Source of the DNA: Halorussus caseinilyticus
GTDB lineage: Archaea > Halobacteriota > Halobacteria > Halobacteriales > Haladaptataceae
Direction: 5' to 3'
Assembly (NCBI RefSeq): GCF_029338395.1
Contig: NZ_CP119809.1
Location: 1,612,001-1,676,000, forward strand
Length of the DNA: 64,000 bases
A program made the position numbers and the translations under genes. Positions 28,311 through 61,060 of the stretch are shown here, piece after piece (position 1 is the first letter of the stretch; every line of letters starts with the position of its first letter). The notes under the pieces were generated by a model, which saw only the letters and a list, made by a program, of their open reading frames with translations, had not been told where the DNA came from and ran no database searches.

Positions 28311-28332
28311 GGTGGGGGAGGATAAATTGCAG

Positions 28333-30258: not shown

Positions 30259-30355
30259 ACTAAAAAAGTAGCACAGAAATAACAAGTGTCTTCTGGTGAG
30301 TTGGAGCGACAAGAGAGAGGGTTTTTAGTTTGCCCCACGCAATTCTCACCTGAGT

Positions 30356-44616: not shown

Positions 44617-45162
44617 TCACTCCTCGTCGGCCGGGACGACCTTCTTGCCGGTCGCCCGCGGCACGACGGTCTGGTCGGCGTCGGTCCACTCGCGGTCCAA
44701 CTCCCGGCCTTCGAAGAGGCGGTCCAGAAACACCGCCAACCCCGCGACTTCGGAGTGGGGTTGGTTGGTCACGCCGACGTTCCAGTCTGCGGCCTCGTAC
44801 ACGTCGAACGAGACTTTCTGTGACCCGACGACGACCAAGATTGGTTCGCCGTCGGCGTGGCACTCGCGGACGGTCGTTTCCACGTCCTGAATCCGTTCGC
44901 CGTACATCGTCAGGTGGACGACCCGGCCCGCCCAGTCGCGGATGACGGCCTTCGGACTGTCGGTCAGTTCCACCTCGAACGGGCCGCCGAAGCGGTCGGT
45001 GATGTCCGCGACGGTGCCCTCGGACTTGCTCGCGTCGCCCGCCAGAATCGCGCGGTCGGCCCCCAGCGCCCGCGCGGTCAGGCCGACGTGGGTCGTCATT
45101 CGCTCGTCGCGGCCCGGCCGATGGCCCAGTCGGAGGACCGCAACCTCGGGTTCGCCTTGCAT
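44617..45162 (-). CDS. trm56: tRNA (cytidine(56)-2'-O)-methyltransferase
   Basis: 181 residues. SPOUT fold (aTrm56): N-terminal EVAVLRLGHRPGRDERMTTHVGLTARALGAD, central NLTMYGE-like VHLTMYGERI, and the knot ILVVVGSQKVSFDVYEAADWNVGVTNQPHSEVAGLAVFLD. Methylates C56 of tRNA. The length is slightly above average. An AT-rich spacer (44515-44616) follows the convergent 5'-nucleotidase stop and has no gene. Confidence 0.93.
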   Translation of the reverse strand: MQGEPEVAVLRLGHRPGRDERMTTHVGLTARALGADRAILAGDASKSEGTVADITDRFGGPFEVELTDSPKAVIRDWAGRVVHLTMYGERIQDVETTVRECHADGEPILVVVGSQKVSFDVYEAADWNVGVTNQPHSEVAGLAVFLDRLFEGRELDREWTDADQTVVPRATGKKVVPADEE

Positions 45163-45650: not shown

Positions 45651-46451
45651 TCACGTCCACCCGTACCGCAGGCCGAACTCCGACTCCAGCAGGTCGGACC
45701 ACTCGGCTTCGGTCACTTCGCGCTCGGTCCGGTCGCCGCGCTCGGTTCGAGTGAACTTCTCGGGCGAGAGCTTCTGATACCCCCGCTCGGTCGCAATCGA
45801 GACGGTCGGGTCGCCCGTGAACGCCGACTCGGGCGCGGTGGCGAGGTGGTCGCAGGTCGCCTCGAAGTAGCCGAGTTTCCGCGGCGTCGTGTCGAACAGA
45901 TACCGGTCGGACCACTCGCCGCCCGGCGTCCGGTACTGGGTCAGGTACTCGGCGTCGGACCGGTCGCTCTCGACCACGCGCCACGCGACCCCCGCCGCGT
46001 CCTCGCTGACGCTTCCGTCGAGGGGAAGCGGTCGGCGGAGCGGCGGCGTCCCGCATCCCACGTCCACGACGTACCGACGGTCCAGCGAGACGAGGTGACT
46101 GTGGTGGTTCGCGGGCGGCCGGGGGTCGCCGTCGTCGCTCAGCATCCGGGCGGCGATTCGGTCGGCGTCGAAGCCGAGTTCCGCGAGCAACCACCCGAAC
46201 AGGCCGTTCAACTCGAAGCAGAACCCGCCGCGCTCTCGCTCCACCACCTTCTCGTAGAGGTGGGGCAGGGTCAGGGTCACGCCCTCGCCGTCGGCCGGTC
46301 CGAAGGGGTCGCCGGTCACCGCCAGCGTCTCGAAGGGAACCGCGGCGACGTGGGCCTGCTGGAGGCGTTCGAGCGTCCCGCGGTCGGCGGTTTCGACCCG
46401 CGCCGGGTCGAGGTCGATGCGCGAGAGGTAGGCGTCGGTGTTCGGAGACAT
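45651..46451 (-). CDS. Arylamine N-acetyltransferase
   Basis: 266 residues from the ATG at 46451 (MSPNTDAYLSRIDLDPARVE). NAT catalytic triad is complete: Cys in GGFCFELNGLF (about residue 75), His in NHHSHLVSL and Asp in RYVVDVGCG. Transfers acetyl from acetyl-CoA to arylamines or hydrazines. The reading frame stays open upstream into the subtilase array, but that part is a shadow of the antisense-free frame of the protease and is not this gene. Confidence 0.92.
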   Translation of the reverse strand: MSPNTDAYLSRIDLDPARVETADRGTLERLQQAHVAAVPFETLAVTGDPFGPADGEGVTLTLPHLYEKVVERERGGFCFELNGLFGWLLAELGFDADRIAARMLSDDGDPRPPANHHSHLVSLDRRYVVDVGCGTPPLRRPLPLDGSVSEDAAGVAWRVVESDRSDAEYLTQYRTPGGEWSDRYLFDTTPRKLGYFEATCDHLATAPESAFTGDPTVSIATERGYQKLSPEKFTRTERGDRTEREVTEAEWSDLLESEFGLRYGWT

Positions 46452-46924: not shown

Positions 46925-48064
46925 TCAGCAGTCGACCGCGGCCTGCACGTCCACCAGACCGCAACCGGTCGCGTCGTCCGAGAGACCGATGTCTTCCGCC
47001 GTCTCGCAGAGGATGTTCCACGTCTTGAAGCGCGTGTAGTTGAACGGGTCGCCCATCAGCAACGCCGCCGCACCGCTGACGAACGGTGCCGCCATCGAGG
47101 TGCCCGAGAGCGTCTTGTAACCGCCGCCGACGTACGTCGAGTAGATGTCGGAACCGGGCGCGGCGATGTTGATTTCCGGACCGGTCGAGGAGAATCCCGA
47201 GAGGTTGTCGCTGGAGTCGATTGAACTCACGGCGAGGGTCTCGGGATAGGCGGCGGGGTAGCCCACGCAGTCGGTACACGGCCCGGAGTTGCCCGCCGCC
47301 GCGACCATCAGGACGCCCTTGCTGTCGGCGTACTTCACCGCGTCTTTGACCGCGCTGGACGCGCTTCCGCCGAGACTCAGGTTGGCGATGTCCCAACCTT
47401 GGTCGGCGACGTACTCGATGCCCGCCGCGATGTCCGAGTACGACCCGCCGCCGTTGCTGTCCAGCACCTTCACGGCGTGGATGGTCGCCTCGGGCGCGAC
47501 CCCGAGGACGCCTTGGCTGTTATCGACGGCCCCGACGATTCCGGCGCAGTGGGTGCCGTGGCCGTTGTCGTCGCCCCACGAGTAGGTACACTCGGCGGAC
47601 CACGAGCTACACGAGACGGCGTACGCGCCAGTGCCGAGGTTGGCTTCGAGGTCGGGGTGGTTGCCGTCGATGCCCGTGTCGATGATGGCTACGTCGGTTC
47701 CCTTCCCCTTCGCGCAGGGGTGGGCCTCCGGTGCGTCGATGCGGTCGATACCCCACGAGATGTTCTGGGCGAGCGCGTGCATCCGGCCGTTCTGCTCGAC
47801 GTAGCGCACGTCGGGACGCTTGCCGAGTTCGCTCGCGGCCCGTCTCGGGACTCGGACCGTCACGACGGGGAGCGAGTCGAAGTCGCGTACCACCTCGCCC
47901 GCGGCGTCGAGAGCGGCCTTTCGGCCGCTCTCGGCGGCGACCCCGACGTTGACTACGACGGGGGTGGAGTCGGCCGAGACGAGACCGGTCGCTCCGAGTC
48001 CGGCGAGTGCGCCGCCGGTCGCTTGCAGGACGCTTCGTCGGTCGATGGGGGTGTGTCGTGTCAT
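46925..48064 (-). CDS. S8 subtilase 1 (last gene of the array)
   Basis: 379 residues. Tat signal IDRRSVLQATGGALAGLG. Propeptide of I9 type (about 35-100, ending VRYVEQNGRMHAL). Catalytic Asp 129 (AIIDTGIDGNHPDL), His 169 (GHGTHCAG), oxyanion Asn 259 (AAAGNSGPCTDC), Ser 323 (SGTSMAAPF). The Asp-His interval carries SCSSWSAECTY. No C-terminal extension of the halolysin type. Its start is 33 bases after the stop of subtilase 2 and lacks an AT-rich box, so it is probably transcribed with subtilase 2 and followed by the BsuPI gene. Confidence 0.93.
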   Translation of the reverse strand: MTRHTPIDRRSVLQATGGALAGLGATGLVSADSTPVVVNVGVAAESGRKAALDAAGEVVRDFDSLPVVTVRVPRRAASELGKRPDVRYVEQNGRMHALAQNISWGIDRIDAPEAHPCAKGKGTDVAIIDTGIDGNHPDLEANLGTGAYAVSCSSWSAECTYSWGDDNGHGTHCAGIVGAVDNSQGVLGVAPEATIHAVKVLDSNGGGSYSDIAAGIEYVADQGWDIANLSLGGSASSAVKDAVKYADSKGVLMVAAAGNSGPCTDCVGYPAAYPETLAVSSIDSSDNLSGFSSTGPEINIAAPGSDIYSTYVGGGYKTLSGTSMAAPFVSGAAALLMGDPFNYTRFKTWNILCETAEDIGLSDDATGCGLVDVQAAVDC

Positions 48065-48097
48065 GGTTCTTCCGTCGATGTCGTTCGGTCGGTCGAT

Positions 48098-49234
48098 TCA
48101 CGCCGCGGCCGCCACGTCGAGCAGACCGTAACCCTGTTCGTTGCTCGACAGGCCGAGGTCCTCGGCGGTGTCCCGGAGGCGGGTGCGAGCGCCGTCGCTC
48201 GTGTACCCCTGCGCGCGGAGGATGCCAGCGCCGCCCGAGACGTGCGCGGCGGCGTAGGAAGTCCCCGAGAGCGACTGGTAGCCGTCGCTCGCGTCGCAGG
48301 ACTCGAAGTAGATGTCGGTGCCGGGCGCGGCGAGTTCGACTTCCGGTCCGGTCGCCGAGAAGTACGCGAGCGAGTCGTTCCGGTTGGTCGCGCTGACGGC
48401 TATCACTTCGCCGAACTTGGCGGGATAGCTCACGCAGTCGGTGCAAGAGCCGCTGTTTCCGACCGCACCGACGAGGGTGACGCCCTCGTCGTCGGCGTAC
48501 CTGATTGCGTCGTACAGCGTGCTGGAGTAACTGCCGCCGAAACTCATGTTCGCCACGTCCCAACCCTTGTCCGCGACCGTTTCGAGACCCGCCGCGATGT
48601 CCGAGTACGACCCCGACCCGTCAGCGCCGAAGACTTTGACCGCGTGGAGGGTCGCGCCGGGTGCCACGCCGACGGTCCCCTCGTAGTTATCCACCGCCCC
48701 GACGAGAGTCGCTAGCTGCGTCCCGTGACCGCTGTCGTCGTCCCACGGTACCTTACAGCCGTTGCAGTAGCTCTCGTCCGAACAGGGGACGACGGCGACT
48801 CCCTCGCCGAGGTTCTGCTCGAGGTCCGACCGGTCGCTGTCGATGCCGGTGTCCACGATTGCGATGTCCGCGCCGGTGCCGTCGGCAGAGGTCCGGTCGG
48901 CGTCTACCCGGTCTACGCTCCACTGTAGGGTCTGGGCGAACGTTTCCATCCGGCCGTTCTCCTCGACGTAGCGCACGTCGGCGCGCTTGCCGAGTGTGGT
49001 CGCGGCCCGCTTGGGCGCGCGCATCGTCAGTGCGTCGAGGGAATCGAACTCGCGGACGACTTCGCCCGCGGCGTCGAGCGCGGCCCTCCGCCCGCTCTCG
49101 GCGGCGAACCCGACGTTGACTTCGACCGACCGGCCGGGGGTCGCCGCCGCGAGACCGGTCGCGGTAGCCCCGACGAGCGAACCGCCGGTCGCACGGAGGA
49201 CGGCACGTCTGGAGAGGTTGGTTTCGAACTGCAT
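48098..49234 (-). CDS. S8 subtilase 2
   Basis: 378 residues. Tat signal LSRRAVLRATGGSLVGA. Asp 128 (AIVDTGIDSDRSDL, HPDL replaced by RSDL), His 170 (GHGTQLATLV, where most subtilases have GHGTHxAG), Asn 260 (GNSGSCTDC), Ser 326 (SGTSYAAAHVSG). The Asp-His interval has PCSDESYCNGCKVPW. The changes around Asp and His are unusual, but all four active-site residues remain. An AT-rich box (ctattaaaattg) sits at 49258-49269. Likely secreted protease. Confidence 0.9.
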   Translation of the reverse strand: MQFETNLSRRAVLRATGGSLVGATATGLAAATPGRSVEVNVGFAAESGRRAALDAAGEVVREFDSLDALTMRAPKRAATTLGKRADVRYVEENGRMETFAQTLQWSVDRVDADRTSADGTGADIAIVDTGIDSDRSDLEQNLGEGVAVVPCSDESYCNGCKVPWDDDSGHGTQLATLVGAVDNYEGTVGVAPGATLHAVKVFGADGSGSYSDIAAGLETVADKGWDVANMSFGGSYSSTLYDAIRYADDEGVTLVGAVGNSGSCTDCVSYPAKFGEVIAVSATNRNDSLAYFSATGPEVELAAPGTDIYFESCDASDGYQSLSGTSYAAAHVSGGAGILRAQGYTSDGARTRLRDTAEDLGLSSNEQGYGLLDVAAAA

Positions 49235-49257
49235 GTGGCGAAGTTACCGAATTGCCG

Positions 49258-49269
49258 CTATTAAAATTG
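49258..49269 (-). promoter_or_regulatory. TATA-like box, subtilase 2
   Basis: ctattaaaattg on the plus strand, 24-35 bases before the ATG at 49234; leaderless-type spacing. Confidence 0.6.
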
Positions 49270-49318
49270 TAAGCTAGCTATCTTAAATTCGAGAGGAAGA
49301 CGGCGGAGAGCGACGACC

Positions 49319-50455
49319 TTAGTCGTCGCTCGAATCGAGTCCCAGCGCCGCGGCCGCATCGACCAGTCCGTAGCCCTGTTCGTCGCTCGGCAGGCCGAGG
49401 TCCTCAGCGGTGTCGCGCAGGCGGGTGCGAGCGCCGGTGTTGGTGTATCCCGCGCCCATCAGGAGGGCGAGGACGCCCGAGGCGTGGGCCGTCGCCATCG
49501 ACGTGCCCGAGAGAGTGATGCACGAGCCGTCGGGGTCCACCGTGGTGATGTTGGTGCCGGGCGCGACGACTTCGACTTCAGGACCCTGACTGGAGAACGA
49601 CGCGAGACCGTCGTTCTCGTTGGTTGCGCCCACGGCGACGACTTCGGAGTAAGCGGCGGGGTAACCCACGCAGTCGGTGCAGGGACCGCTTCCGCCCGCC
49701 GCGCCCACGAGGACGACGCCGTTGTTCTGGGCGTACTGGCAAGCGTCCCGCAGGACCGACGACCCGGAACTGCCGCCGAGACTCATGTTCGCCACGTCCC
49801 ACCCCTGATTCGCGGTGTACTCGACGCCCGCGGCGATGTCGGAGTACGACCCCGCGCCGTAGTCGTCCAGCACCTTCACGGCGTGGAGGGTCGCGTCGGG
49901 CGCGATGCCGGTGGTGCAGTCGCAGGTCTCGCTCGCGCCGATGACCGCCGCGACGTTCGCCCCGTGGCCGTTGTCGTCGTCCCACGGCGCACAGCAACTC
50001 GAAGTGCAGTCTACGAACGCCTTGCCGGCACCGACGTTCGGCAGACAAGAACTGTTACACGGCAGGCCGGTGTCGATGATAGCCACGTCCACGCCGTCGC
50101 CGGTGTACCCGTTGATGTTGGTCACGTCGGCGTCGATGCGGTCGTAGCCCCACGTCGTCGAGAGGGCGTGTGCGGTGCCGTCGTGTTCGACGTAGCGCAC
50201 GCCACCGCGGTCGGCCAGCGCAGTCGCGGCGCGTTTCGGGAGTCGGAGGGTCGCGGCGTCGAAGTCGAACTCGCGGACGACTTCGCTTGCGGCCTCGCGC
50301 GCGGCGGCGCGACCCGCCTCGGAGTCGAACCCGACGTTGACTCGTACCACGTCGTCGGGGTCGGCCGAGGCGAGACCACCTGCGCCGACAGCGAGGAGCG
50401 AACCGCCGGTCGTCTTCAGCACGGTGCGTCGGGAGACAGCCTGTTCGGGGAGCAT
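49319..50455 (-). CDS. S8 subtilase 3, oxyanion-hole Asn replaced by Gly
   Basis: 378 residues. Tat signal VSRRTVLKTTGGSLLAVG. Asp 128 (AIIDTGLPCNSSCLPN, so the usual GIDxxHPDL is lost), His 164 (NGHGANVAAV), Ser 319 (SGTSMATAHASG). The oxyanion-hole position reads GAAGGSGPCTDC: Gly 255 where all nine sisters have Asn. The Asp-His interval has DCTSSCCAPW and the region after His an extra CDC. It may be a weak or non-catalytic copy (decoy, binding protein or pseudoenzyme). Confidence 0.9.
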   Translation of the reverse strand: MLPEQAVSRRTVLKTTGGSLLAVGAGGLASADPDDVVRVNVGFDSEAGRAAAREAASEVVREFDFDAATLRLPKRAATALADRGGVRYVEHDGTAHALSTTWGYDRIDADVTNINGYTGDGVDVAIIDTGLPCNSSCLPNVGAGKAFVDCTSSCCAPWDDDNGHGANVAAVIGASETCDCTTGIAPDATLHAVKVLDDYGAGSYSDIAAGVEYTANQGWDVANMSLGGSSGSSVLRDACQYAQNNGVVLVGAAGGSGPCTDCVGYPAAYSEVVAVGATNENDGLASFSSQGPEVEVVAPGTNITTVDPDGSCITLSGTSMATAHASGVLALLMGAGYTNTGARTRLRDTAEDLGLPSDEQGYGLVDAAAALGLDSSDD

Positions 50456-50480
50456 CAGTATACTGCAAAGTGTTCTTAGG

Positions 50481-50494
50481 ATAAAATAATTTTG
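50481..50494 (-). promoter_or_regulatory. TATA-like box, subtilase 3
   Basis: ataaaataattttg on the plus strand, 26-39 bases before the ATG at 50455. Confidence 0.6.
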
Positions 50495-50639
50495 TACTTA
50501 ATATAAATGAAACAATATTCTGAAGGTTCAACGCTGTCGCTATCCGACTGGCGCGAGAAAAGCGGGGTCGGGCGGACTTACGCCAGCGAGCGACCCACGC
50601 CGGGTCTCTCGCCGACTGGTAAGATGGCAGTTGTCGCCG

Positions 50640-51764
50640 TTACAGCGCGCCCACGTCGAGCAGGCCAGCGCCGGACTCGTTGTCCGCGAGACCGATGTTC
50701 TCGGCGGTGCTCAGGAGGCGGTTCTTCGTCTGGGAGTTGGAGTAGCCCTGCGCACGGAGGATGCCAGCGGCACCGGCGACGTGCGGACAGGCCATCGAGG
50801 TACCCGAGAGCGTCTCGTAACCGCCACCGACGTACGTCGAGTAGATGTCGGAACCGGGCGCGGCGATGTCCACTTCCGGACCGGTCGAGGAGAAACTCGA
50901 CAGGTCGTCGTTGGAGTTGGTCGAGGAGACGGCGATGGTCTCGGGGTAGGCGGCGGGGTAGCCCACGCAGTCGGTACAGGGACCGGAGTTCCCGGCGGCC
51001 GCGACGAGCGTGACGCCTCGGCTGTCGGCGTACTGCACCGCGTCTCGGACCGAGCTGGACGCACTGCCACCGAGCGAGAGCGAACCAACGTCCCAGCCCT
51101 GGTCGGCGACGTACTCGATACCCGCCGCGATGTCGGAGTACGACCCACCGCCTCTGCTACCGAGGACCTTCACGGCGTGGAGCGTGATTTCCGACCCGAC
51201 GCCGACGACGCCCTCGTAGTTGTCGACTGCGCCAGCGATGCCAGCACAGTGAGTACCGTGGCCGTTGTCGTCTCCCCAGCCGTAGGTACACTCGGCGGAG
51301 TAGGAGCTACACTGGGTAGCGTACGCGCCAGCGCCGAGGTTGGCTTCGAGGTCGGGGTGGTTGCCGTCGATACCCGTGTCGATGATTGCTACGTCTGCAC
51401 CGTTACCCTCGGCGGACTGAACGTCGGCGTCCACACGGTCGACGCCCCACGGCAGGGTCTGGGCGAGGGCCTGCATCTGGCCGTTCTCTTCGACGTAGCG
51501 GACGTTCGGACTCTGTTCGAGACCCGTGACCGCCTTCTTGGGCGCACGGATGGTGACGATGTCGAGCGAGTTGAACTTCCGGACCACGTCGCTCGCGGCG
51601 TCGAGCGCCTTCTGTCGTCCCTTCTCGGACTTGAACCCGACGTTGACCTCTACCGTGTCGTCGGGCTTGGCCGCCGCGAGACTGGTCGCGCTCAGGGCGG
51701 CGAGCGAACCACCGGCGGTTTGCAGAACTTTACGACGGGAAACGCCGTTGTTTTCTTCGAGCAT
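50640..51764 (-). CDS. S8 subtilase 4
   Basis: 374 residues. Tat signal VSRRKVLQTAGGSLAAL. I9-type propeptide ending YVEENGQMQAL. Asp 129 (DTGIDGNHPDL), His 169 (GHGTHCAG), Asn 259 (GNSGPCTDC), Ser 323 (SGTSMACPHVAG). The Asp-His interval QCSSYSAECTY is closest to that of subtilase 1. Complete triad, predicted secreted protease without C-terminal extension; stops soon after LLDVGAL. Confidence 0.94.
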   Translation of the reverse strand: MLEENNGVSRRKVLQTAGGSLAALSATSLAAAKPDDTVEVNVGFKSEKGRQKALDAASDVVRKFNSLDIVTIRAPKKAVTGLEQSPNVRYVEENGQMQALAQTLPWGVDRVDADVQSAEGNGADVAIIDTGIDGNHPDLEANLGAGAYATQCSSYSAECTYGWGDDNGHGTHCAGIAGAVDNYEGVVGVGSEITLHAVKVLGSRGGGSYSDIAAGIEYVADQGWDVGSLSLGGSASSSVRDAVQYADSRGVTLVAAAGNSGPCTDCVGYPAAYPETIAVSSTNSNDDLSSFSSTGPEVDIAAPGSDIYSTYVGGGYETLSGTSMACPHVAGAAGILRAQGYSNSQTKNRLLSTAENIGLADNESGAGLLDVGAL

Positions 51765-51791
51765 GGCAGTTGAACGAAGATGTTGGCCAAC

Positions 51792-51805
51792 AATAAAGTT
51801 TTATT
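51792..51805 (-). promoter_or_regulatory. TATA-like box, subtilase 4
   Basis: aataaagttttatt on the plus strand, 28-41 bases before the ATG at 51764. The rest of the 51765-52046 spacer is AT-rich and gene-free. Confidence 0.6.
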
Positions 51806-52046
51806 CTAGAACTAGATGTTAGGAACAATATCTATATATGGGATACGAAATATGTTTTCGTTGCTTCAGAGAATGTGTATCATAACGATGCAATTAATTT
51901 GGTTGCTTAAAGAATTATTTGGCAGTGTTTATTCGCAAATATTGACAGCTATTTTCGTGGAGGGGATTGGTAACGTAAAACACTGCCGCTGGTCGGAGTC
52001 TCGATGCGGGCGTCGAAAGAAAGAGTCGGTTCCGAAGGGGGACGGA

Positions 52047-53240
52047 TTACGTGCTGTCGCTAGAGTCGTAACCGAGCGCGGCCGCGGCGTCCAATAGGCC
52101 AGCGCCGGACTCGTTGCTGGCGAGACCGATGTTCTCGGCGGAGTTCGCCAGCGTCGAACGGATGTTACTGCCGGTCGTACCGTTCGAGGCGAGTTGGCCC
52201 GCGACACCGGCGACGTGCGGGGTCGCCATCGAGGTCCCCGAGTAGGTGTCGTAGCCGCCGTTCGCGACCGACGAGTAGATGTCGGTACCGGGCGCGGCGA
52301 TGTCCACTTCCGGCCCCGTACTGGAGAAGTCCGAGAGGCTGTCGTCGCTGGCGGTCGAACTCACGGCCATGACCTCGCTGTAGGCGGCGGGGTAGCCCAC
52401 ACAGTCGGTACACGGTCCGGAGTTACCCGCGGCCGCGACGAGGAACACGCCGTTGTTCGTCGCGTACTGCACCGCGTCCTTGAGCGCCGAGGAGCCAGAG
52501 CTACCGCCGAGGCTCATCGACCCAACGTCCCAGCCTTGGTCGGCGACGTACTCGACACCCGCCGCGATGTCCGAGAACGAACCGCTCCCACAGCCGTCGA
52601 GGACCTTCACCGCGTGGAGGGTCACGTCGGGCGCGGCACCGACGACTCCCTGACTGTTGTTGTCACCTGCGGCGATACCGGCACAGTGGGTGCCGTGGTT
52701 GTTGTCGTCGGTCCACGAGTAGTTACACGTGTTGTTGGCCTTCTTCGCGCCGAAACGACAGCCACCCTTGGTCTTACACGTGGCGAACGCCTTCCCTGCG
52801 CCGAGTTTGTCGGTCAGGTCGGGGTGGTCGTCGTCGATACCCGTGTCGAGGATTGCCACGTCCGCGCCGCTTCCGAGTTCGCCGTTGGCGTGGAGAACGT
52901 CGGAGTCCACGCGTTCCTGACCCCACGGCAGACTCTCGGCGAGCGCGTGCATCGTGCCGTTCTGCTCGACGTAGCGCACGTTCGGGTTGTTCTCCAGACC
53001 CTTGGCCGCCTGCTTCGAGGCGCGCATCGTCACGACATCGATGGAGTTGAAGTCACGGACCACTTCGTCGGCCGCGCTGAGCGCCTTCTGACGCCCGCTC
53101 TCGGACTTGAACCCGACGTTGACCTCCACCGTGTCGCCGGGCTTTGCCGCCGCGAGACCGCTCGCGGCCGCAGTCGCCACCGACGCACCGGCCGCTTTCA
53201 GAACACTCCGCCTCGACATACCATTGTCATTACCTAACAT
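52047..53240 (-). CDS. S8 subtilase 5
   Basis: 397 residues from the ATG at 53240 (MLGNDNGMSRRSVLKAAGAS); the frame is open further up but the promoter box fixes this start. Asp 132 (AILDTGIDDDHPDL), His 182 (NNHGTHCAG), Asn 273 (GNSGPCTDC), Ser 337 (SGTSMATPHVAG). The Asp-His interval is long, with three Cys (TCKTKGGCRFGAKKANNTCNY). Nearly identical to subtilase 6 over most of its length: a recent tandem duplicate. Confidence 0.94.
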   Translation of the reverse strand: MLGNDNGMSRRSVLKAAGASVATAAASGLAAAKPGDTVEVNVGFKSESGRQKALSAADEVVRDFNSIDVVTMRASKQAAKGLENNPNVRYVEQNGTMHALAESLPWGQERVDSDVLHANGELGSGADVAILDTGIDDDHPDLTDKLGAGKAFATCKTKGGCRFGAKKANNTCNYSWTDDNNHGTHCAGIAAGDNNSQGVVGAAPDVTLHAVKVLDGCGSGSFSDIAAGVEYVADQGWDVGSMSLGGSSGSSALKDAVQYATNNGVFLVAAAGNSGPCTDCVGYPAAYSEVMAVSSTASDDSLSDFSSTGPEVDIAAPGTDIYSSVANGGYDTYSGTSMATPHVAGVAGQLASNGTTGSNIRSTLANSAENIGLASNESGAGLLDAAAALGYDSSDST

Positions 53241-53264
53241 TGCACTCGATAGCAACCACCACGT

Positions 53265-53275
53265 GCATAAAATAC
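53265..53275 (-). promoter_or_regulatory. TATA-like box, subtilase 5
   Basis: gcataaaatac on the plus strand, 25-35 bases before the ATG at 53240. Confidence 0.6.
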
Positions 53276-53464
53276 TTTCTTTTTTATCGTTAAAATAATA
53301 AACATCCAACAATTGCTATGTAGAAATAGTTAGGAAAAATAATTGTAGCGGCCGGAGCGTCCCGAAACGAGACCTGACCTGACTGGTTTAGACGAACGCG
53401 AACCGGGACGCCGACCGAAGGGAAAGAGTGACAGACACTGACACCGAAAAAACCGGGAAAGGGT

Positions 53465-54661
53465 TTACGTGCTGTCGCTGGAGTCGTAGCCGAGTGCGGC
53501 CGCGGCGTCGAGCAGACCGGCACCGGACTCGTTGCTGGCGAGACCGATGTTCTCGGCGGAGTTCGCCAGCGTCGAACGGATGTTACTGCCGGTCGTACCG
53601 TTCGAGGCGAGTTGGCCCGCGACACCGGCGACGTGCGGGGTCGCCATCGAGGTCCCCGAGTAGGTGTCGTAGCCGCCGTTCGCGACCGACGAGTAGATGT
53701 CGGTACCGGGCGCGGCGATGTCGACCTCGGGACCTTGCGACGAGAAGTCCGAGAGGCTGTCGTCGCTGGCGGTCGAACTCACGGCCATGACCTCGCTGTA
53801 GGCGGCGGGGTAGCCCACACAGTCGGTACACGGTCCGGAGTTACCCGCGGCCGCGACGAGGAACACGCCGTTGTTCGTCGCGTACTGCACCGCGTCCTTG
53901 AGCGCCGAGGAGCCGGAGCTGGCACCGAGCGACATCGACCCAACGTCCCAGCCTTGGTCGGCGACGTACTCGACACCCGCCGCGATGTCCGAGAACGAAC
54001 CGCTCCCACACTTGTCGAGGACCTTCACCGCGTGGAGGGTCACGTCGGGCGCGGCACCGACGACTCCCTGACTGTTGTTGTCGCCTGCGGCGATACCGGC
54101 ACAGTGTGTGCCGTGGTTGTTGTCGTCGGTCCACGAGTAGTTACACGTGTTGTTCGCGGGTTTCGCACCGTAGCGACAGCCACCGCTCGTGTTGCAGGAG
54201 ACGAACGCCTTCCCTGCGCCGAGTTTGTCGGTCAGGTCGGGGTGGTCGTCGTCGATACCCGTGTCGAGGATGGCCACGTCCGCACCCGCGCCGAGTTCGC
54301 CGTTGGCGTGGAGAACGTCGGAGTCCACGCGCTCCTGACCCCACGGCAGACTCTCGGCGAGCGCGTGCATCGTGCCGTTCTGCTCGACGTAGCGCACGTT
54401 CGGGTTGTTCTCCAATCCGGAGACGGCTTTCTTGGCCGCGCGCATCGTCACGACATCGATGGAGTTGAAGTCACGGACCACTTCGTCGGCCGCGCTGAGC
54501 GCCTTCTGACGCCCGCTTTCGGACTTGAACCCGACGTTGACCTCCACCGTGTCGTCGGGTTTCGCCGCCGCGAGACCACTGCCTGCCGCCGCAGTCGCCA
54601 CCGACGCACCGGCCATCTTGAGAACGTTCCGCCTCGAAACACCATTGTCGTTATCTAGCAT
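53465..54661 (-). CDS. S8 subtilase 6
   Basis: 398 residues. Tat signal VSRRNVLKMAGAS. Asp 133, His 183, Asn 274 and Ser 338 in the same motifs as subtilase 5. Differences from subtilase 5 cluster in the Asp-His interval (SCNTSGGCRYGAKPANNTCNY), a few signal residues and a patch reading FSSQGPEVD where subtilase 5 has FSSTGPEVD. That patch is, at DNA level, identical over 36 bases to subtilase 9, pointing to gene conversion. Complete active site. Confidence 0.94.
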   Translation of the reverse strand: MLDNDNGVSRRNVLKMAGASVATAAAGSGLAAAKPDDTVEVNVGFKSESGRQKALSAADEVVRDFNSIDVVTMRAAKKAVSGLENNPNVRYVEQNGTMHALAESLPWGQERVDSDVLHANGELGAGADVAILDTGIDDDHPDLTDKLGAGKAFVSCNTSGGCRYGAKPANNTCNYSWTDDNNHGTHCAGIAAGDNNSQGVVGAAPDVTLHAVKVLDKCGSGSFSDIAAGVEYVADQGWDVGSMSLGASSGSSALKDAVQYATNNGVFLVAAAGNSGPCTDCVGYPAAYSEVMAVSSTASDDSLSDFSSQGPEVDIAAPGTDIYSSVANGGYDTYSGTSMATPHVAGVAGQLASNGTTGSNIRSTLANSAENIGLASNESGAGLLDAAAALGYDSSDST

Positions 54662-55008
54662 GGCAATTAATCCATAATGCCGGTTACTAATAAGTTTTTC
54701 TTATTTTGCTGTGAAAATAACTCTCTGAGGCCGTATTTTCTTACGATTCCGATTTCATCTGACGAAGTATTAAAAAGAGGTGGAGTAGTACGAGCCGCCT
54801 CGGTCGGAATCGGCGACGGCGCGCGAGACGAGCGCCGACTTCCTCGAAGTCGGCGCTCGGTGACGGGACTCGGCAGTCGCTTCGAGGCGACTGGTCGAGA
54901 AGCGACGGAAACAGAAACGCGGCGAAGCGAAAGCGCAACGAAACGGGAACGCGGCGAAAACGAGGCAGGGATGGTAGGTGATGACGGAGGCGAACCCTCG
55001 TTACGCGC
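54662..55008. promoter_or_regulatory. Spacer with subtilase 6 promoter and subtilase 7 hairpin
   Basis: The AT-rich box actaataagttttt at 54686-54699 lies 25-38 bases before the subtilase 6 ATG. A perfect hairpin (cgagcgccgacttc, loop ctc) at 54829-54859 follows subtilase 7 on the minus strand and leads to a minus-strand T run near 54770, a good terminator. Bases 54880-54990 are rich in gcgaaa/gaaac motifs. No gene seen. Confidence 0.6.
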
Positions 55009-56160
55009 TTAGTTGTCGCTGGAGTCGTAGTTGAGTGCGGCGGCCACGTCGAGGAGACCAGCGCCGGACTCGTTGTCCGCGAGACCGATGTTCTCCGCGG
55101 AACTCTTGATGGTGTCGCGGGCCTTCGTGTTGCTGGCACCGTTGGCCATCAGTTGACCGCCAGCACCGGCGACGTGCGGGGTCGCCATCGAGGTACCCGA
55201 GAAGGTGTCGTAGCCACCGACGACAGTCGAGTAGATGCTGGAACCGGGTGCGGCGATTTCGACCTGCGGACCCGTCGAGGAGAACCCGGAGAGATTGTCG
55301 CTAGAGTCGGTCGAACTCACGGCCATGACCTCGCTGTAGGCGGCGGGGTAGCCCACGCAGTCGGTACAGGGACCCGAATTTCCGGCCGCGCCGACGAGGA
55401 ACACGCCGTTGTTGTAGGCGTAGGTACACGCGCTCTTCAGCGTCTGACCGCCCGAGGACGCGCCGAGAGACATCGAACCAACGTCCCAGCCCTGATTGGC
55501 GACGTACTCGATACCGGCCGCCACGTCCGAGAGCGTCCCGCTACCGCTGTTGTCCAGCACCTTCACGGCGTGGAGGGTCGCGTCGGTGGAGACGCCGACG
55601 ACGCCCCGACTGTTGTCCACCGCGTCGGCGATACCGGCGCAGTGGGTCCCGTGGTCGTTGTCGTCCGACCAGTTGTAGTTACAACCCTTGCCGCGGCACT
55701 TGACGAACGCCTTGCCCGACCCGACGTTGGCCTGTAGGTCGGGGTGGTCGCCGTCGATTCCCGTGTCGATGATGGCGATGTCCGCACCAGCGCCGGTGTC
55801 GCCGTTGGCGTGAGCGACTTCGGCGTCCACGCGGTCGATACCCCACGGCAGGGTCTGGGCCAGCGCGTGAACTTCGCTGTTCTCCTCGACGAATCGCACG
55901 TCTGCGCGGTTCTCCAGACCCGAGACGGCCTGTTTCGCGGCGCGAATCGTCACGATGTCCAGCGAGTCGAACTTTCGAACCACGTCGCTCGCGGCGTCGA
56001 GCGCCGCCTTCTGACCGCTGGTGGATTTGAACCCGACGTTGACCTCCACCGTGTCGCCGGGCTTTGCCGCCGCCAGTCCGCTTCCCGCGGCGGTTGCCAC
56101 GGATGCACCGGCCATCTTGAGAACGTTCCGCCTCGACACACCATTGTCGTTACCTAACAT
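55009..56160 (-). CDS. S8 subtilase 7 (shortest Asp-His interval of its subgroup)
   Basis: 383 residues. Tat signal VSRRNVLKMAGAS. Asp 132 (AIIDTGIDGDHPDL), His 170 (NDHGTHCAG), Asn 261 (GNSGPCTDC), Ser 324 (SGTSMATPHVAG). The Asp-His interval is reduced to KCRGKGCNYNW. An extra Cys in LKSACTYAYN near residue 245 is absent from sisters other than number 3 (RDACQYAQ). Complete triad. Ends LLDVAAALNYDSSDN like the rest. Confidence 0.94.
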   Translation of the reverse strand: MLGNDNGVSRRNVLKMAGASVATAAGSGLAAAKPGDTVEVNVGFKSTSGQKAALDAASDVVRKFDSLDIVTIRAAKQAVSGLENRADVRFVEENSEVHALAQTLPWGIDRVDAEVAHANGDTGAGADIAIIDTGIDGDHPDLQANVGSGKAFVKCRGKGCNYNWSDDNDHGTHCAGIADAVDNSRGVVGVSTDATLHAVKVLDNSGSGTLSDVAAGIEYVANQGWDVGSMSLGASSGGQTLKSACTYAYNNGVFLVGAAGNSGPCTDCVGYPAAYSEVMAVSSTDSSDNLSGFSSTGPQVEIAAPGSSIYSTVVGGYDTFSGTSMATPHVAGAGGQLMANGASNTKARDTIKSSAENIGLADNESGAGLLDVAAALNYDSSDN

Positions 56161-56184
56161 GGCAAATTAAATAAGTTGTTGGAG

Positions 56185-56198
56185 AATAATAAATTTTT
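56185..56198 (-). promoter_or_regulatory. TATA-like box, subtilase 7
   Basis: aataataaattttt on the plus strand, 25-38 bases before the ATG at 56160. Confidence 0.6.
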
Positions 56199-56269
56199 CT
56201 TCAGATATATTACTATAAAATTACAAGTGCATTTTGGTGGAAAATTTCGCTGGTCGGAGGGTTGCGACG

Positions 56270-57466
56270 CTACGTGCTGTCCGACGAGTCGAGTCCGAGG
56301 GCGGCGGCCGTATCGACCAGTCCGTACCCCTGTTCGTCGTCCGAGAGACCGATGTCCTCCGCGGTGGCGTGGAGGCGGTCGCGGGCCTCGGTGTTGGTGT
56401 AACCGTTCGCCATCAACTGCCCGCCGGTCCCCGAGACGTGCGGACAGGCCATCGACGTGCCGCCGTAGTAGGCGTACCCGCCGTAGACCGTCGAGTAGAT
56501 GTCGGTACCGGGCGCGGCGAGTTCGACTTCGGGACCCTGCGACGAGAAGTTCGCCAACTGGTCGTTCTCCGTGGTCGCGCTGACCGCGACGACCTCGGGT
56601 TCGGCCGCGGGATAGCTAACGCAGTCGGTGCAGGGACCGTCGTTCCCGGCCGCCGCGACCAACAGGACGCCCTTCCCGTAGGCGTACTCTACGGCGTCCT
56701 CGACGGCTTGGGACTTGCCGCCGCCGAGACTCAGCGACCCAACGTCCCACCCTTGGTCGGCGGTGTACTCGATGCCCGCCGCGACATCCGAGAACGTCCC
56801 ACTCCCGCAGTAGTCCAGTACCTTCACGGCGTGGAGGGTGGCCTCCGTCGAGACGCCGACGACCCCCTGCGTGTTGTCCACGGCGTCGGCGATACCGGCG
56901 CAGTGGGTCCCGTGGTTGTTGTCGTCCGACCACGCGTAGTTACAGGGGTTGTCGTTCGTTCTGCTTCCGTACCGACACCCGTTCGGCCGACCTTGCAGTG
57001 GTCGGCAGTCCACGAAGGCTTTGCCCGCCCCGACGTTGGCCTGTAGGTCGGGGTGGTCGCCGTCGATTCCGGTGTCGATGACGGCGATGTCCGCGCCAGC
57101 GCCCGTCTCGCCGTTCGCGTGGGCTACCTCGGCGTCGATGCGGTCGATACCCCACGGCAGGGTCTGACTCAGGGCCTCCATGGTCCCGTTCTCCTCGACG
57201 TACCGAATCCCGGCGCTCCGTTCGAGTCCGGCGACGGCCCGTTTGGGAAGGCGGATGGTCAGAGCGTCGAACGCGAAGGTCCGAACCACCTCGGTCGCGG
57301 CGTCGAACGCCACTTTCCGGCCGCTCTCGGACTCGAACCCGACGTTGACTTCGACCGTATCGTCGGGTTTCGCGGCCGCGAGACCCCCTGCCCCGATAGT
57401 TGCGACGGACGCGCCCGCCGTTTTGAGTACGTTCCTCCTTGAGACACCGTTGTCATTATAGGACAT
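56270..57466 (-). CDS. S8 subtilase 8
   Basis: 398 residues from the ATG at 57466 (MSYNDNGVSRRNVLKTAGAS). Asp 131 (AVIDTGIDGDHPDL), His 185 (NNHGTHCAG), Asn 275 (GNDGPCTDC), Ser 338 in GGTSMACPHVSG, where the first residue is Gly rather than the usual Ser. Longest Asp-His interval of the set (DCRPLQGRPNGCRYGSRTNDNPCNY). Propeptide ends YVEENGTMEALS. Complete triad; predicted secreted. Confidence 0.94.
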   Translation of the reverse strand: MSYNDNGVSRRNVLKTAGASVATIGAGGLAAAKPDDTVEVNVGFESESGRKVAFDAATEVVRTFAFDALTIRLPKRAVAGLERSAGIRYVEENGTMEALSQTLPWGIDRIDAEVAHANGETGAGADIAVIDTGIDGDHPDLQANVGAGKAFVDCRPLQGRPNGCRYGSRTNDNPCNYAWSDDNNHGTHCAGIADAVDNTQGVVGVSTEATLHAVKVLDYCGSGTFSDVAAGIEYTADQGWDVGSLSLGGGKSQAVEDAVEYAYGKGVLLVAAAGNDGPCTDCVSYPAAEPEVVAVSATTENDQLANFSSQGPEVELAAPGTDIYSTVYGGYAYYGGTSMACPHVSGTGGQLMANGYTNTEARDRLHATAEDIGLSDDEQGYGLVDTAAALGLDSSDST

Positions 57467-57488
57467 GACGTTCGAATGAGCAATGGAA

Positions 57489-57505
57489 CTAATAATCAAA
57501 TTTCT
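57489..57505 (-). promoter_or_regulatory. TATA-like box, subtilase 8
   Basis: aactaataatcaaattt on the plus strand, 23-39 bases before the ATG at 57466. Confidence 0.6.
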
Positions 57506-57607
57506 ACCTATTTACTTAAAATCTACGCGCGCGAGACTCGTACCGGTTCGTCGTGAGACAGTCGAACGACGCCGAGAGCGCGGCCGAAAAAAGCTACTTC
57601 GGAGTCG

Positions 57608-58804
57608 TTACGTGCTGTCGCTGGAGTCGAGTCCGAGCGCCGCCGCCACGTCGAGCAGACCAGCGCCGGACTCGTTGTCCGAGAGGTCGATGTTCTCGGC
57701 CGTGGACTTCAGTTGGTCGCGGGCCTCGCCGTTGGTGTAACCGTTCGCCATGAGTTGACCGCCCGCGCCCGCGACGTGCGGGCAAGCCATCGACGTACCC
57801 GAGAAGGTGTCGTACCCGCCGGGCACCGTCGAGTAGATGTCGGTGCCGGGCGCGGCGATTTCGACCTCGGGACCTTGCGACGAGAAGTCCGAGAGGTCGT
57901 CGTTCGAGTCGGTCGAACTCACGGCCATGACCTCGCTGTAGGCGGCGGGGTAGCCCACACAGTCGGTGCAGGAACCGGAGTTACCGGCCGCGGCGACCAG
58001 CAGGACGCCGTTGCTCTGGGCGTACTCGACGGCGCTCTTGAGCGTGGACGACCCGGAACTGCCGCCGAGGGACATCGACGCGACATCCCAGCCCTGATTG
58101 GCGACGTACTCGATACCCGCCGCGATGTCCGAGAACGACCCACTGCCCGAACAGTCCAGCACCTTCACGGCGTGGAGGGTCGCTTCGGTCGAAACACCGA
58201 CGACGCCCCGACTGTTGTCCACCGCGTCGGCGATGCCAGCGCAGTGGGTGCCGTGGTCGTTGTCGTCCGACCACGTGTAGTTACACGCGTTGCTGTTGCC
58301 CGAGTACGAGCAGTCGCCGAAGTACCCGCCGTTGCCACAGTTGACGAACGCCTCGCCCGACCCCAAGTTGCCCTGTAAGTCGGGGTGGTCGTCGTCGATT
58401 CCGGTGTCGATGATGGCGATGTCCGCGCCAGCGCCCGTCTCTCCGTTCGCGTGGGCGACTTCGGCGTCCACGCGGTCGATACCCCACGGCAGGGTCTGGG
58501 CCAGCGCGTGCATCGTCCCGTTCTCCTCGACGAACTCGACGTTCGGATTGTTTTCGAGACCGCTCGCCGCCTTCTTGGGCATCTTGGCGGTCACGATGTC
58601 GAGCGAGTCGAACTCGCGGACGACTTCGGTCGCGGCGTCGAGCGTCTGCTTGCGACCCTTCTCGGACTTGAACCCGACGTTGACTTCGACCGTATCGTCG
58701 GGTTTCGCGGCCGCGAGACCACTCCCCGCCGCGGCAGTCGCCACGGACGCACCGACGCCTTTCAGAACGTTTCGCCTCGACACACCACTGCTATTTTGGA
58801 ACAT
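57608..58804 (-). CDS. S8 subtilase 9
   Basis: 398 residues. Tat signal VSRRNVLKGVGAS. Asp 133 (AIIDTGIDDDHPDL), His 184 (NDHGTHCAG), Asn 275 (GNSGSCTDC), Ser 338 (SGTSMACPHVAG). Asp-His interval NCGNGGYFGDCSYSGNSNACNY, shared in outline only with subtilase 10, so 9 and 10 form a pair. Complete triad; predicted secreted. Confidence 0.94.
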   Translation of the reverse strand: MFQNSSGVSRRNVLKGVGASVATAAAGSGLAAAKPDDTVEVNVGFKSEKGRKQTLDAATEVVREFDSLDIVTAKMPKKAASGLENNPNVEFVEENGTMHALAQTLPWGIDRVDAEVAHANGETGAGADIAIIDTGIDDDHPDLQGNLGSGEAFVNCGNGGYFGDCSYSGNSNACNYTWSDDNDHGTHCAGIADAVDNSRGVVGVSTEATLHAVKVLDCSGSGSFSDIAAGIEYVANQGWDVASMSLGGSSGSSTLKSAVEYAQSNGVLLVAAAGNSGSCTDCVGYPAAYSEVMAVSSTDSNDDLSDFSSQGPEVEIAAPGTDIYSTVPGGYDTFSGTSMACPHVAGAGGQLMANGYTNGEARDQLKSTAENIDLSDNESGAGLLDVAAALGLDSSDST

Positions 58805-58831
58805 AGCAATTTAACTATTATCGAATAACAG

Positions 58832-58841
58832 ATTAAAATTA
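58832..58841 (-). promoter_or_regulatory. TATA-like box, subtilase 9
   Basis: attaaaatta on the plus strand, 28-37 bases before the ATG at 58804. Confidence 0.6.
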
Positions 58842-58941
58842 TGACCTAATTGTTTAAACCCATAATTTTAATTTTAAAAGACTTTGGGAAAGAAGGGTGA
58901 TTGCTCGAAAAGAAACCGGGAACCGGTGAGTCGGGACGCGC

Positions 58942-60135
58942 TCAGTTGTCGCTTGAGTCGAGTCCGAGCGCCGCCGCCACGTCGAGCAGACCGTTGCCCT
59001 GTTCGTTGCTCGACAGACCGATGTCCTCGGCCGTGCTTTCGAGCGCGTTTCGAGCCTCGGAGTTGGACTTGCCGCTGGCCATGAGTTGGCCGCCCGCGCC
59101 CGCGACGTGCGGGCAGGCCATCGACGTACCGTCGAAGTTGGCGTATCCGCTCGGCACCGTCGAGTAGACGCCCTTTCCGGGCGCGGCGATGTCCACCTCG
59201 GGACCCTGCGCGGAGAAGTCCGCAAGCGAGTCGCTCTCGGTCGTCGCGGAGACCGCGACGACCTCTTCGTACTTCGCGGGGTACTTCACACAGTCGGTAC
59301 ATGGACCGGGATTACCCGCCGCGACCACCACGAGGACGCCGCTGTCGTTGGCGTACTGCACCGCGTCCTTGAGCGTCTGAGAACTCGAGTCGCCGCCGAG
59401 CGAGAGGCTAGCCACGTCCCAGCCTTGGTCGGCGACGTACTCGACGCCCGCCGCGATGTCCGAGAACGACCCGCTCCCGGCACAGTCCAGTACTTTGACC
59501 GCGTGGAGGGTCGCTTCGGTCGAGACGCCGACGACGCCTTCGCCGTTGTTGACCGCGTTGGCAGTCCCGGCGCAGTGGGTGCCGTGGTCGTTGTCGTCCG
59601 ACCACGACCGGTTACAGGAGTTGCTGTTACCCGACCACGCGCAGTTGCCGAAGTACCCGCCGTTACCGCAGGAGACGAACGACTCGCCCGCACCGAGGTT
59701 GCCCTGTAGGTCGGGGTGGTCGTCGTCGATTCCCGTGTCTACGATAGCGATGTCCGCGCCAGCGCCCGTCTCGCCGTTCGCGTGAGCGACTTCGGCGTCC
59801 ACGCGGTCGATACCCCACGGTAGGGTCTGGGCGAGCGCTTCCATCGTCCCGTTCTGTTCGACGTAGCGGATGTTGGGACTCTTCTCGAGTGCCGTCGCCG
59901 CCTTCTTCGGCAAGCGGAGCGTAACCGCGTCGATGGAGTTGAACTCCCGAACCGTCTCGCTGGCCTTGTCCAGTGCCGCTTTTCGCCCGCGTTCGGACGC
60001 GAATCCGACGTTGACTTCCACCGTGTCGTCGGGTTTCGCCGCCGCGAGACCGCTTCCGACGCTTGCGGTCGCCACGGACGCACCGACGCCTTTCAGAACG
60101 TTTCGCCTCGACACACCTTTGTCATTATGTGCCAT
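58942..60135 (-). CDS. S8 subtilase 10 (first gene of the array)
   Basis: 397 residues. Tat signal VSRRNVLKGVGAS. Asp 133 (AIVDTGIDDDHPDL), His 184 (NDHGTHCAG), Asn 275 (GNPGPCTDC), Ser 338 in DGTSMACPHVAG (Asp in place of the first Ser). GPCTDCVKYPAKY differs from the usual CVGYPAAY. Asp-His interval SCGNGGYFGNCAWSGNSNSCNRSW. Complete triad. Predicted secreted protease. Confidence 0.94.
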   Translation of the reverse strand: MAHNDKGVSRRNVLKGVGASVATASVGSGLAAAKPDDTVEVNVGFASERGRKAALDKASETVREFNSIDAVTLRLPKKAATALEKSPNIRYVEQNGTMEALAQTLPWGIDRVDAEVAHANGETGAGADIAIVDTGIDDDHPDLQGNLGAGESFVSCGNGGYFGNCAWSGNSNSCNRSWSDDNDHGTHCAGTANAVNNGEGVVGVSTEATLHAVKVLDCAGSGSFSDIAAGVEYVADQGWDVASLSLGGDSSSQTLKDAVQYANDSGVLVVVAAGNPGPCTDCVKYPAKYEEVVAVSATTESDSLADFSAQGPEVDIAAPGKGVYSTVPSGYANFDGTSMACPHVAGAGGQLMASGKSNSEARNALESTAEDIGLSSNEQGNGLLDVAAALGLDSSDN

Positions 60136-60160
60136 GACATTTGTACATTATACCCATTCA

Positions 60161-60174
60161 TAATAAAATTTTTT
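60161..60174 (-). promoter_or_regulatory. TATA-like box, subtilase 10
   Basis: taataaaatttttt on the plus strand, 26-39 bases before the ATG at 60135. The rest of the gap to 60304 is AT-rich and gene-free. Confidence 0.6.
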
Positions 60175-60304
60175 CTAGATGGCATTACTAAATTAACGAC
60201 TCTGATTTTTGCCATTCTATCCCTAAATTCTCTTTCTCTTGTCAAATTCCGTCTGATTTCGACCGAACGGCACGCCTTTAGGACCCGAGCGCGTAGCCGC
60301 GGGC

Positions 60305-61060
60305 GTGCAAATCGTCGGGTACGAGACGGAACGTGACGACGGACGACCGGCGCTGTTCGTGGCGGACGGCCGAGAGGTACGCCGCGAACCGCTGGCGCAG
60401 GGCGGGAGTCTCGGCTACTCGCTCGGCGAGCGCCGGTGTGCGGGCGCGTTAGACGGGACGACCCACTACGACTGTGAGAACGAGACCGCGCCCTACTGCG
60501 GCCAGCACGCGAGTACGTGGGTGTGCGCCCGGTGTACCGGCACGTGTCTCAAAGACGAGATGGACTGCTACGACGACCACGCTCTCTACCTCGCGGCGTT
60601 CGCGCCCGCGACGTTCAAGGTCGGCGTGACCAAAGAGTGGCGACTCCGCACGCGCCTGCGCGAGCAAGGCGCGGACCGCGCCGCCCACCTCCGGACGGTC
60701 GAGAACGGCCGAGTCGCCCGCGAAATCGAGTCGCAACTGGCCGAGGAGTACACCGACCGCGTGCGTGTGCCCGCGAAGGTTTCGGGGTTGCACCGCGATG
60801 TGGACGCCGAAGACTGGAAATCAACGCTGGCGGCGTTCGACCCCATCGAGACGTTCGACTTCGACTACGGGTTGGAGTTGGACGCCGCGCCGGTCGCCGA
60901 AACCGTGCTGACCGGCGAGATTCTCGGCGTGCAGGGCCGCGTGCTGGTGCTGGAGCGCGGCGGCACGACCTACGCCGTGGACCTGCGGGACGTGGTTGGC
61001 TACGAGATTTCCGAAGAGGCGACCGACCGAGAGTTGCAGTCGAGTCTCGCGGCGTTTTGA
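60305..61060 (+). CDS. DUF2797 family zinc-binding protein
   Basis: 251 residues from a GTG at 60305. A cysteine cluster (YDCENETAPYCGQHASTWVCARCTGTC, about residues 58-84) probably binds zinc. It is followed by a GIY-YIG-like stretch (ALYLAAFAPATFKVGVTKEWRLRTRLREQGA) and a C-terminal beta domain (GEILGVQGRVLVLERGGTTYAVDLRDVVGYEI). Matches the DUF2797 family; nucleic-acid cleavage or modification is suspected from the fold but not shown. Confidence 0.88.
   Translation: MQIVGYETERDDGRPALFVADGREVRREPLAQGGSLGYSLGERRCAGALDGTTHYDCENETAPYCGQHASTWVCARCTGTCLKDEMDCYDDHALYLAAFAPATFKVGVTKEWRLRTRLREQGADRAAHLRTVENGRVAREIESQLAEEYTDRVRVPAKVSGLHRDVDAEDWKSTLAAFDPIETFDFDYGLELDAAPVAETVLTGEILGVQGRVLVLERGGTTYAVDLRDVVGYEISEEATDRELQSSLAAF

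Follow-up and report, generated by a model that had tools for sequence, protein, structure and literature searches.

The genome of Halorussus caseinilyticus (assembly GCF_029338395.1) raises the question of why ten genes for subtilisin-type proteases should lie side by side at a single chromosomal site. The genes were encountered in a stretch of 64,000 nucleotides (contig NZ_CP119809.1, positions 1,612,001 to 1,676,000), hereafter called the window, whose own numbering is used below. On its minus strand, positions 46925-60135 comprise ten complete S8 subtilase genes in tandem, S1 to S10, as read from the list of open reading frames (ORFs) and their translations. The explanation favoured here, with moderate confidence, is that compact subtilisin-type proteases have long been passed on vertically as a tandem array in a fixed slot and form a differentiated secreted battery, probably nutritional, with one weakened member. 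The ten genes, with lengths in amino acids (aa) and residues in subtilisin numbering, are as follows.

46925..48064, minus strand: S1, a compact subtilase of 379 aa that keeps N155 and the triad, has TSMAAPFV around its catalytic Ser, and lies 33 bp beyond S2.
48098..49234, minus strand: S2, compact subtilase, 378 aa; N155 kept, Ala225, Gln67; a long-branch member.
49319..50455, minus strand: S3, compact subtilase, 378 aa; triad intact; Asn155 to Gly, Pro225 to Ala, His67 to Asn.
50640..51764, minus strand: S4, compact subtilase, 374 aa.
52047..53240, minus strand: S5, compact subtilase, 397 aa when started at ATG; 95% identity to S6.
53465..54661, minus strand: S6, compact subtilase, 398 aa.
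55009..56160, minus strand: S7, compact subtilase, 383 aa.
56270..57466, minus strand: S8, compact subtilase, 398 aa when started at ATG; subsite 166 is Ser.
57608..58804, minus strand: S9, compact subtilase, 398 aa; canonical residues; served as query.
58942..60135, minus strand: S10, compact subtilase, 397 aa; Lys166 in the S1 substrate pocket.

When the ATG beside the motif for twin-arginine translocation (Tat) is taken as the start, the proteins measure 374-398 aa. All ten match PF00082 strongly (E 1e-45 to 3e-60, far above cut-off) and retain the Asp/His/Ser triad. An N-terminal pair of arginines is present in 10/10 members, invariant at alignment positions 10-11, and a lipobox Cys near the cleavage region is found in none; the Tat motif marks S1-S10 as predicted secreted proteins. 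Each protein stops shortly past the PF00082 match, and the C-terminal extension of classical halolysins is missing in all ten. A first-pass annotation made from the letters alone was therefore right as to number, strand, length, export signal and missing extension. Its I9-type propeptide stands by fold, AlphaFold2 models of S3 and S9 finding their best PDB match in unprocessed pro-subtilisin E with its prodomain (3whi), and fails by Pfam, where no I9 match was obtained for the propeptides of S1-S10 and PF22148 rises above cut-off only in S5, S6, and S10. An assembly artefact is unlikely because pairwise identity among the ten genes is 54-95%, and it was rejected on this divergence together with synonymous divergence (dS), synteny, and spacing: the closest pair, S5/S6, is 95% identical and yet has a dS of about 0.2, the flanks of the array are syntenic with other Halorussus genomes, and the intergenic spacers are unequal, from 33 to 347 bp. 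The S5 and S8 references used in the alignments and in ratios of nonsynonymous to synonymous divergence (dN/dS) lacked the first Met, which leaves the conclusions unaffected. Roughly a dozen further S8 genes lie outside the array in the same genome.

The array occupies a conserved slot, with a divergent DUF2797 gene on one side and genes for an arylamine N-acetyltransferase (NAT) and/or Trm56 downstream. In the window, these neighbours are as follows.

60305..61060, plus strand: DUF2797 gene (PF10977), conserved upstream boundary of the slot.
45651..46451, minus strand: NAT gene (PF00797), downstream neighbour in seven Halorussus loci, window included.
44617..45162, minus strand: Trm56 tRNA methyltransferase gene (PF01994), conserved downstream boundary of the slot.

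DUF2797 is kept at this place in 18/18 Halorussus genomes, whose slots hold 0-10 copies (median 3.5), the maximum being that of the window. No intact gene is present in G001, G002, and G008, one in G010 and G016, two in G006, G009, and G012 (the latter two with a frameshifted S3-type gene in addition), three in G003, four in G004, G011 (an incomplete metagenome-assembled genome), G013, and G014, five in G005, G007, and G017, six in G015, and ten in the window. The G004 array crosses contig ends (L079 end, L080 start, C1), and its S4-type gene is split at the record's origin. The same slot holds 2-5 copies in nine Haladaptatus genomes and three copies each in G281 and G358, which belong to another family. 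One or two genes adjoin DUF2797 in Halolamina, Haloferax marinum, Halobaculum, Halogranum, Halostella, Halorubellus, Halobium, Halorarius, Haloprofundus, Halegenticoccus, and Halomicrococcus. A close relative (E<=1e-90) was detected in 125 of the 392 genomes of the order that were sampled. In this order-wide search the best four candidates per genome were scored, four-match genomes outside Halorussus were searched again in full, and each genome with at least four matches was either re-scored or had its loci read; the survey covered the compact type, arrays of other S8 subfamilies lying outside it. Among these 392 genomes, no compact-type array of more than six genes was found beyond the window, which agrees with the earlier claim that an array of this size is unusual, as do the tandem counts across relatives. 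Ten copies is the largest array seen and the high point of a graded pattern. The open-access literature, with subscription journals outside the search, yielded no description of the array. Secreted haloarchaeal proteases are usually viewed one enzyme at a time; in this slot they have been retained and multiplied, which allows the evolution of each gene to be followed over nearly 30 genomes. Tandem arrangements of longer relatives occur elsewhere: a separate array of about six (L104, G025:C3:14849-29647; frames of ~370-690 aa over 15 kb) in an incomplete genome of another family, and a second tandem pair at G000:C1:139969-142882 (frames of 535 and 594 aa, 66-70% identity to S9), with similar pairs in other Halorussus (L012, L022, L046).

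The history of the ten genes can be traced in a tree, in which S9, S10, S8, S7, S5/S6, S4, S1, and S3 each cluster with genes from further species of Halorussus. Those of Haladaptatus are placed near the S5-S7, S4, and S3 regions, and part of the array is therefore older than the Halorussus-Haladaptatus split. Nei-Gojobori dN/dS amounts to 0.14-0.32 across all lines tested, S3 included, and the paralogs are mostly old orthologous lines under purifying selection. S5/S6 and a pair in G015 are recent near-identical duplicates, the similarity of S5 and S6 presumably reflecting either recent duplication or gene conversion. A recent strain-specific burst was rejected by the tree, in which only S5/S6 are recent, and the lineage-specific expansion expected at first did not take that form: most lines recur throughout Halorussus, and some are older than its split from Haladaptatus. 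Individual subsites differ between lines. Lys166 in the S1 substrate pocket of the S10 line, common to its orthologs in G012 and G016, would be expected to favour acidic residues at P1, and Gly101 is found in the S4 and S1 lines.

The member of the array that is predicted to be weakened is S3. It combines an exchange of the oxyanion-hole Asn155 for Gly with Pro225 to Ala and His67 to Asn in the presence of an intact triad, a change overlooked in the first-pass annotation. Asn155 is kept in the other nine, which are ordinary S8 enzymes, and S3 belongs to the family by its fold and triad. Among 171 aligned relatives, a set in which a few genomes are present twice, Gly155 occurs in 17, Ala225 accompanies it in 17/17, and 151 carry Asn155/Pro225; S2 and a single gene of G005 combine Asn155 with Ala225. 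Nine Halorussus genomes (window counted) carry the S3 type at full length, most Haladaptatus arrays contain it, and the sole array gene of G010, a divergent one, has Gly155/Ala225 too. A degenerate DNA pattern for the G155 motif matched 9/392 genomes, all Halorussus or Haladaptatus, and its N155 version 108 genomes; since this strict pattern fails to match some members of the two genera that the alignment shows, absence of the type elsewhere is not completely proven. A single origin of all Gly155 sequences is neither rejected nor proven: the approximately unbiased (AU) test gives p 0.63 with the constrained tree slightly better, and the free quick tree separates these sequences. dN/dS within the S3 line is 0.14-0.27 (0.21-0.27 in Halorussus pairs, 0.14-0.20 in Haladaptatus), near that of the active paralogs. 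In subtilisin, turnover falls about two orders of magnitude or more when Asn155 is lost, and a loss of activity in S3 would be expected from N155G. P225A is a helix-relaxing change used in subtiligase (PMC7921005). The S3 protein likely folds, may or may not shed its prodomain, and cuts poorly. Since the active-site change should give a poor cutter, S3 may serve another job, most likely as a partner or regulator that is slow, retains its prodomain or binds a ligand, rather than as a general protease. The paired N155G/P225A exchange amounts to an experiment by nature on an enzyme active site that ranks among the best studied.

A further component of the slot is found in the sister genus. In 9/9 Haladaptatus genomes, a short ORF encodes the propeptide domain alone.

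L094-L102, L005-L008, L058 (e.g., L097:10346-10585): free propeptide ORFs, Haladaptatus, between DUF2797 and the first protease.

A GTG codon stands at a conserved position, 15 codons before a VNVG motif, and the Tat signal is missing. No free propeptide gene was found at the Halorussus loci examined, and the propeptide matches of the window genome all lie within protease frames. The Tat-dependent halolysin SptA activates itself inside cells and harms them (PMC6085418), which makes a role of the Haladaptatus free propeptide as cytosolic inhibitor a reasonable inference. Such a gene suggests how cells that fold proteases before Tat export could prevent their intracellular action.

By anatomy (compact, about 400 aa), S1-S10 fit the type of HlyHap, a halolysin of Haladaptatus sp. 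DYF46 that has no C-terminal extension (Hou 2022, cited in PMC12893001 and PMC12975503). As far as these citing accounts go, HlyHap resembles the array members in being a compact S8 protease of about 400 codons, and it is proteolytically active. The DYF46 genome carries the DUF2797-Trm56 slot with a small array (L005/L099); HlyHap was not assigned to a DYF46 gene, as no array start codon yields exactly 1,203 bp. In the parts of the two citing papers that were consulted, HlyHap is described as a single enzyme, with no tandem array or S3-type paralog. The classical halolysins SptA, HlyR4, and Nep share Tat signal, propeptide, subtilisin catalytic domain, and secretion with the array (PMC6085418) but carry the C-terminal extension that its members lack. 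Halorussus S8 proteins of roughly 530 aa are about 42% identical to S9 and located elsewhere. The Bacillus subtilisins (subtilisin E, BPN') resemble the array in the fold with prodomain (3whi) and in the catalytic residues, whereas Tat export, an additional loop with Cys ahead of the catalytic His, and a CxxC following Asn155 set the array apart, and S3 has in addition lost N155 and P225. The P225A exchange of subtiligase/peptiligase, an engineered S221C/P225A subtilisin (PMC7921005), is natural in S2 and S3; in contrast to the engineered enzyme, both keep the catalytic Ser instead of Cys, and S3 additionally lacks N155. For conserved subtilases that are inactive or altered and act in regulation, CspC (PMC6636752) and PCSK9 (PMC8551645) are precedents. 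As described there, they are, like S3, catalytically altered and conserved within a family of active enzymes; unlike subtilase pseudoproteases, S3 keeps all triad residues (D, H, S), only oxyanion-hole and neighbouring residues being changed. Compact halolysins and gene-family expansion are known already; new are the conservation of the slot, the altered active site retained in the S3 line, and the free propeptide gene of Haladaptatus.

According to the favoured explanation, the slot between DUF2797 and Trm56, which holds one gene in most haloarchaea using it, has expanded in the Haladaptataceae and most of all in this Halorussus. Each array protein would fold in the cytosol prior to Tat export and would remove its own propeptide by self-cleavage. 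The secreted proteases would then degrade extracellular protein, mainly for nutrition and with modest differences in preference, and hydrolysis would be much reduced in the S3 line (Gly155, Ala225). A nutritional role is probable in view of the secretion, the general-purpose fold, the active relative HlyHap, and the scavenging role proposed for SptA from deletion mutants (PMC6085418). Several observations weigh against this explanation. The substrate cleft contains 5/69 line-distinguishing sites against 10% expected, and between-line variability gives p=0.35; without such enrichment selection for diversity is not demonstrated, the specificity part is weakened, and positive diversification at the cleft was rejected. 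The S3-type gene is frameshifted in G009 and G012 (L085:12253-13391, L088:12661-13787), so the role of S3 is not essential, and the three Halorussus genomes without a protease in the slot indicate that the array is dispensable. The original proposal of selection for diversity rather than dosage accordingly finds partial support: long-diverged, constrained paralogs and single subsite changes such as Lys166 speak for it, and the lack of cleft enrichment speaks against it.

Pure dosage, in which redundant copies merely supply more enzyme, would account for the fold and signal common to all ten, the mostly identical cleft residues, and the near-identical pairs S5/S6 and G015. It is nevertheless unlikely, since most lines are older than the Halorussus species and held by purifying selection, and active-site residues are altered in S2 and S3. 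Antagonism has also to be considered, with the array subtilisins cutting precursor proteins of the cell itself or of its neighbours into antimicrobial peptides or destroying competitors' halocins. In the consulted part of one study, HlyR4, SptA, Hly65, and the compact HlyHap each cleave the precursor HFX_0892 to give a peptide active against haloarchaea (PMC12893001). The same effect is obtained with general proteases, however, which leaves the ten copies unexplained; neither a precursor gene nor a halocin gene was recognised at the slot, and a link to lanthipeptide synthetases is missing, as the Halorussus genomes with empty slots have 0, 1, and 2 of them and none need be present where the array has 3 or 5 copies. 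Antagonism is therefore regarded as doubtful, and a function as lanthipeptide leader protease was rejected for want of co-occurrence with LanM. An anti-phage or other defence function, raised in the first-pass annotation, is very improbable. S8 proteases do belong to some defence systems and PADLOC subtilase models match the catalytic domain, but these matches are generic, the identified neighbours are housekeeping genes, the proteins bear Tat signals and are predicted to be secreted, and the NCBIfam anti-phage S8 match reaches 20 bits against a 900-bit cut-off. With a specific match missing in both NCBIfam and PADLOC, defence was rejected.

Two further possibilities concern S3. That it is a decaying gene, a pseudogene to be, might be read from the frameshifts in G009 and G012. 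This is improbable given that the window and eight further Halorussus genomes carry the gene at full length, with a dN/dS in the pairs tested close to that of the active paralogs, and that the same G155/A225 pair occurs in Haladaptatus at a dN/dS of 0.14-0.20. A tentative proposal, somewhat less improbable than any of these rivals, holds that the S3 line is a selectively kept subtilisin with its oxyanion hole dismantled (N155G) and its nucleophile helix relaxed (P225A), which would have traded general hydrolysis for a dedicated job as regulator or decoy of its sister proteases, as prodomain-locked binding protein, or as slow transpeptidase; the Haladaptatus array would in addition be under a cytosolic, free-standing propeptide inhibitor.

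As to expression of the array, the 70 bp upstream of S2-S10 have a mean GC of 0.31 versus 0.64 for the window, with a separate AT-rich region for each gene and a TTTATT-like element often located ~33 bp ahead of the start; for S5 and S8 the slices used are offset by 3 bases, with conclusions unaffected. These regions are suggestive of promoters. S1 lacks an AT-rich promoter-like region of its own and probably follows S2 in transcription. S10 borders on the following spacer.

60136..60304, no strand assigned: spacer between S10 and the divergent DUF2797 gene, 169 bp; AT-rich promoter-like region of S10.

Elsewhere in the window, positions 28312-29544 (plus strand) encode a putative Tat-exported trypsin-like protein with a GDSGGP motif and a Trypsin match below cut-off, adjoined at 29557-30312 (minus strand) by a gene for a putative lipoprotein. 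The stretch is low in GC (48% vs 64%) and was possibly acquired.

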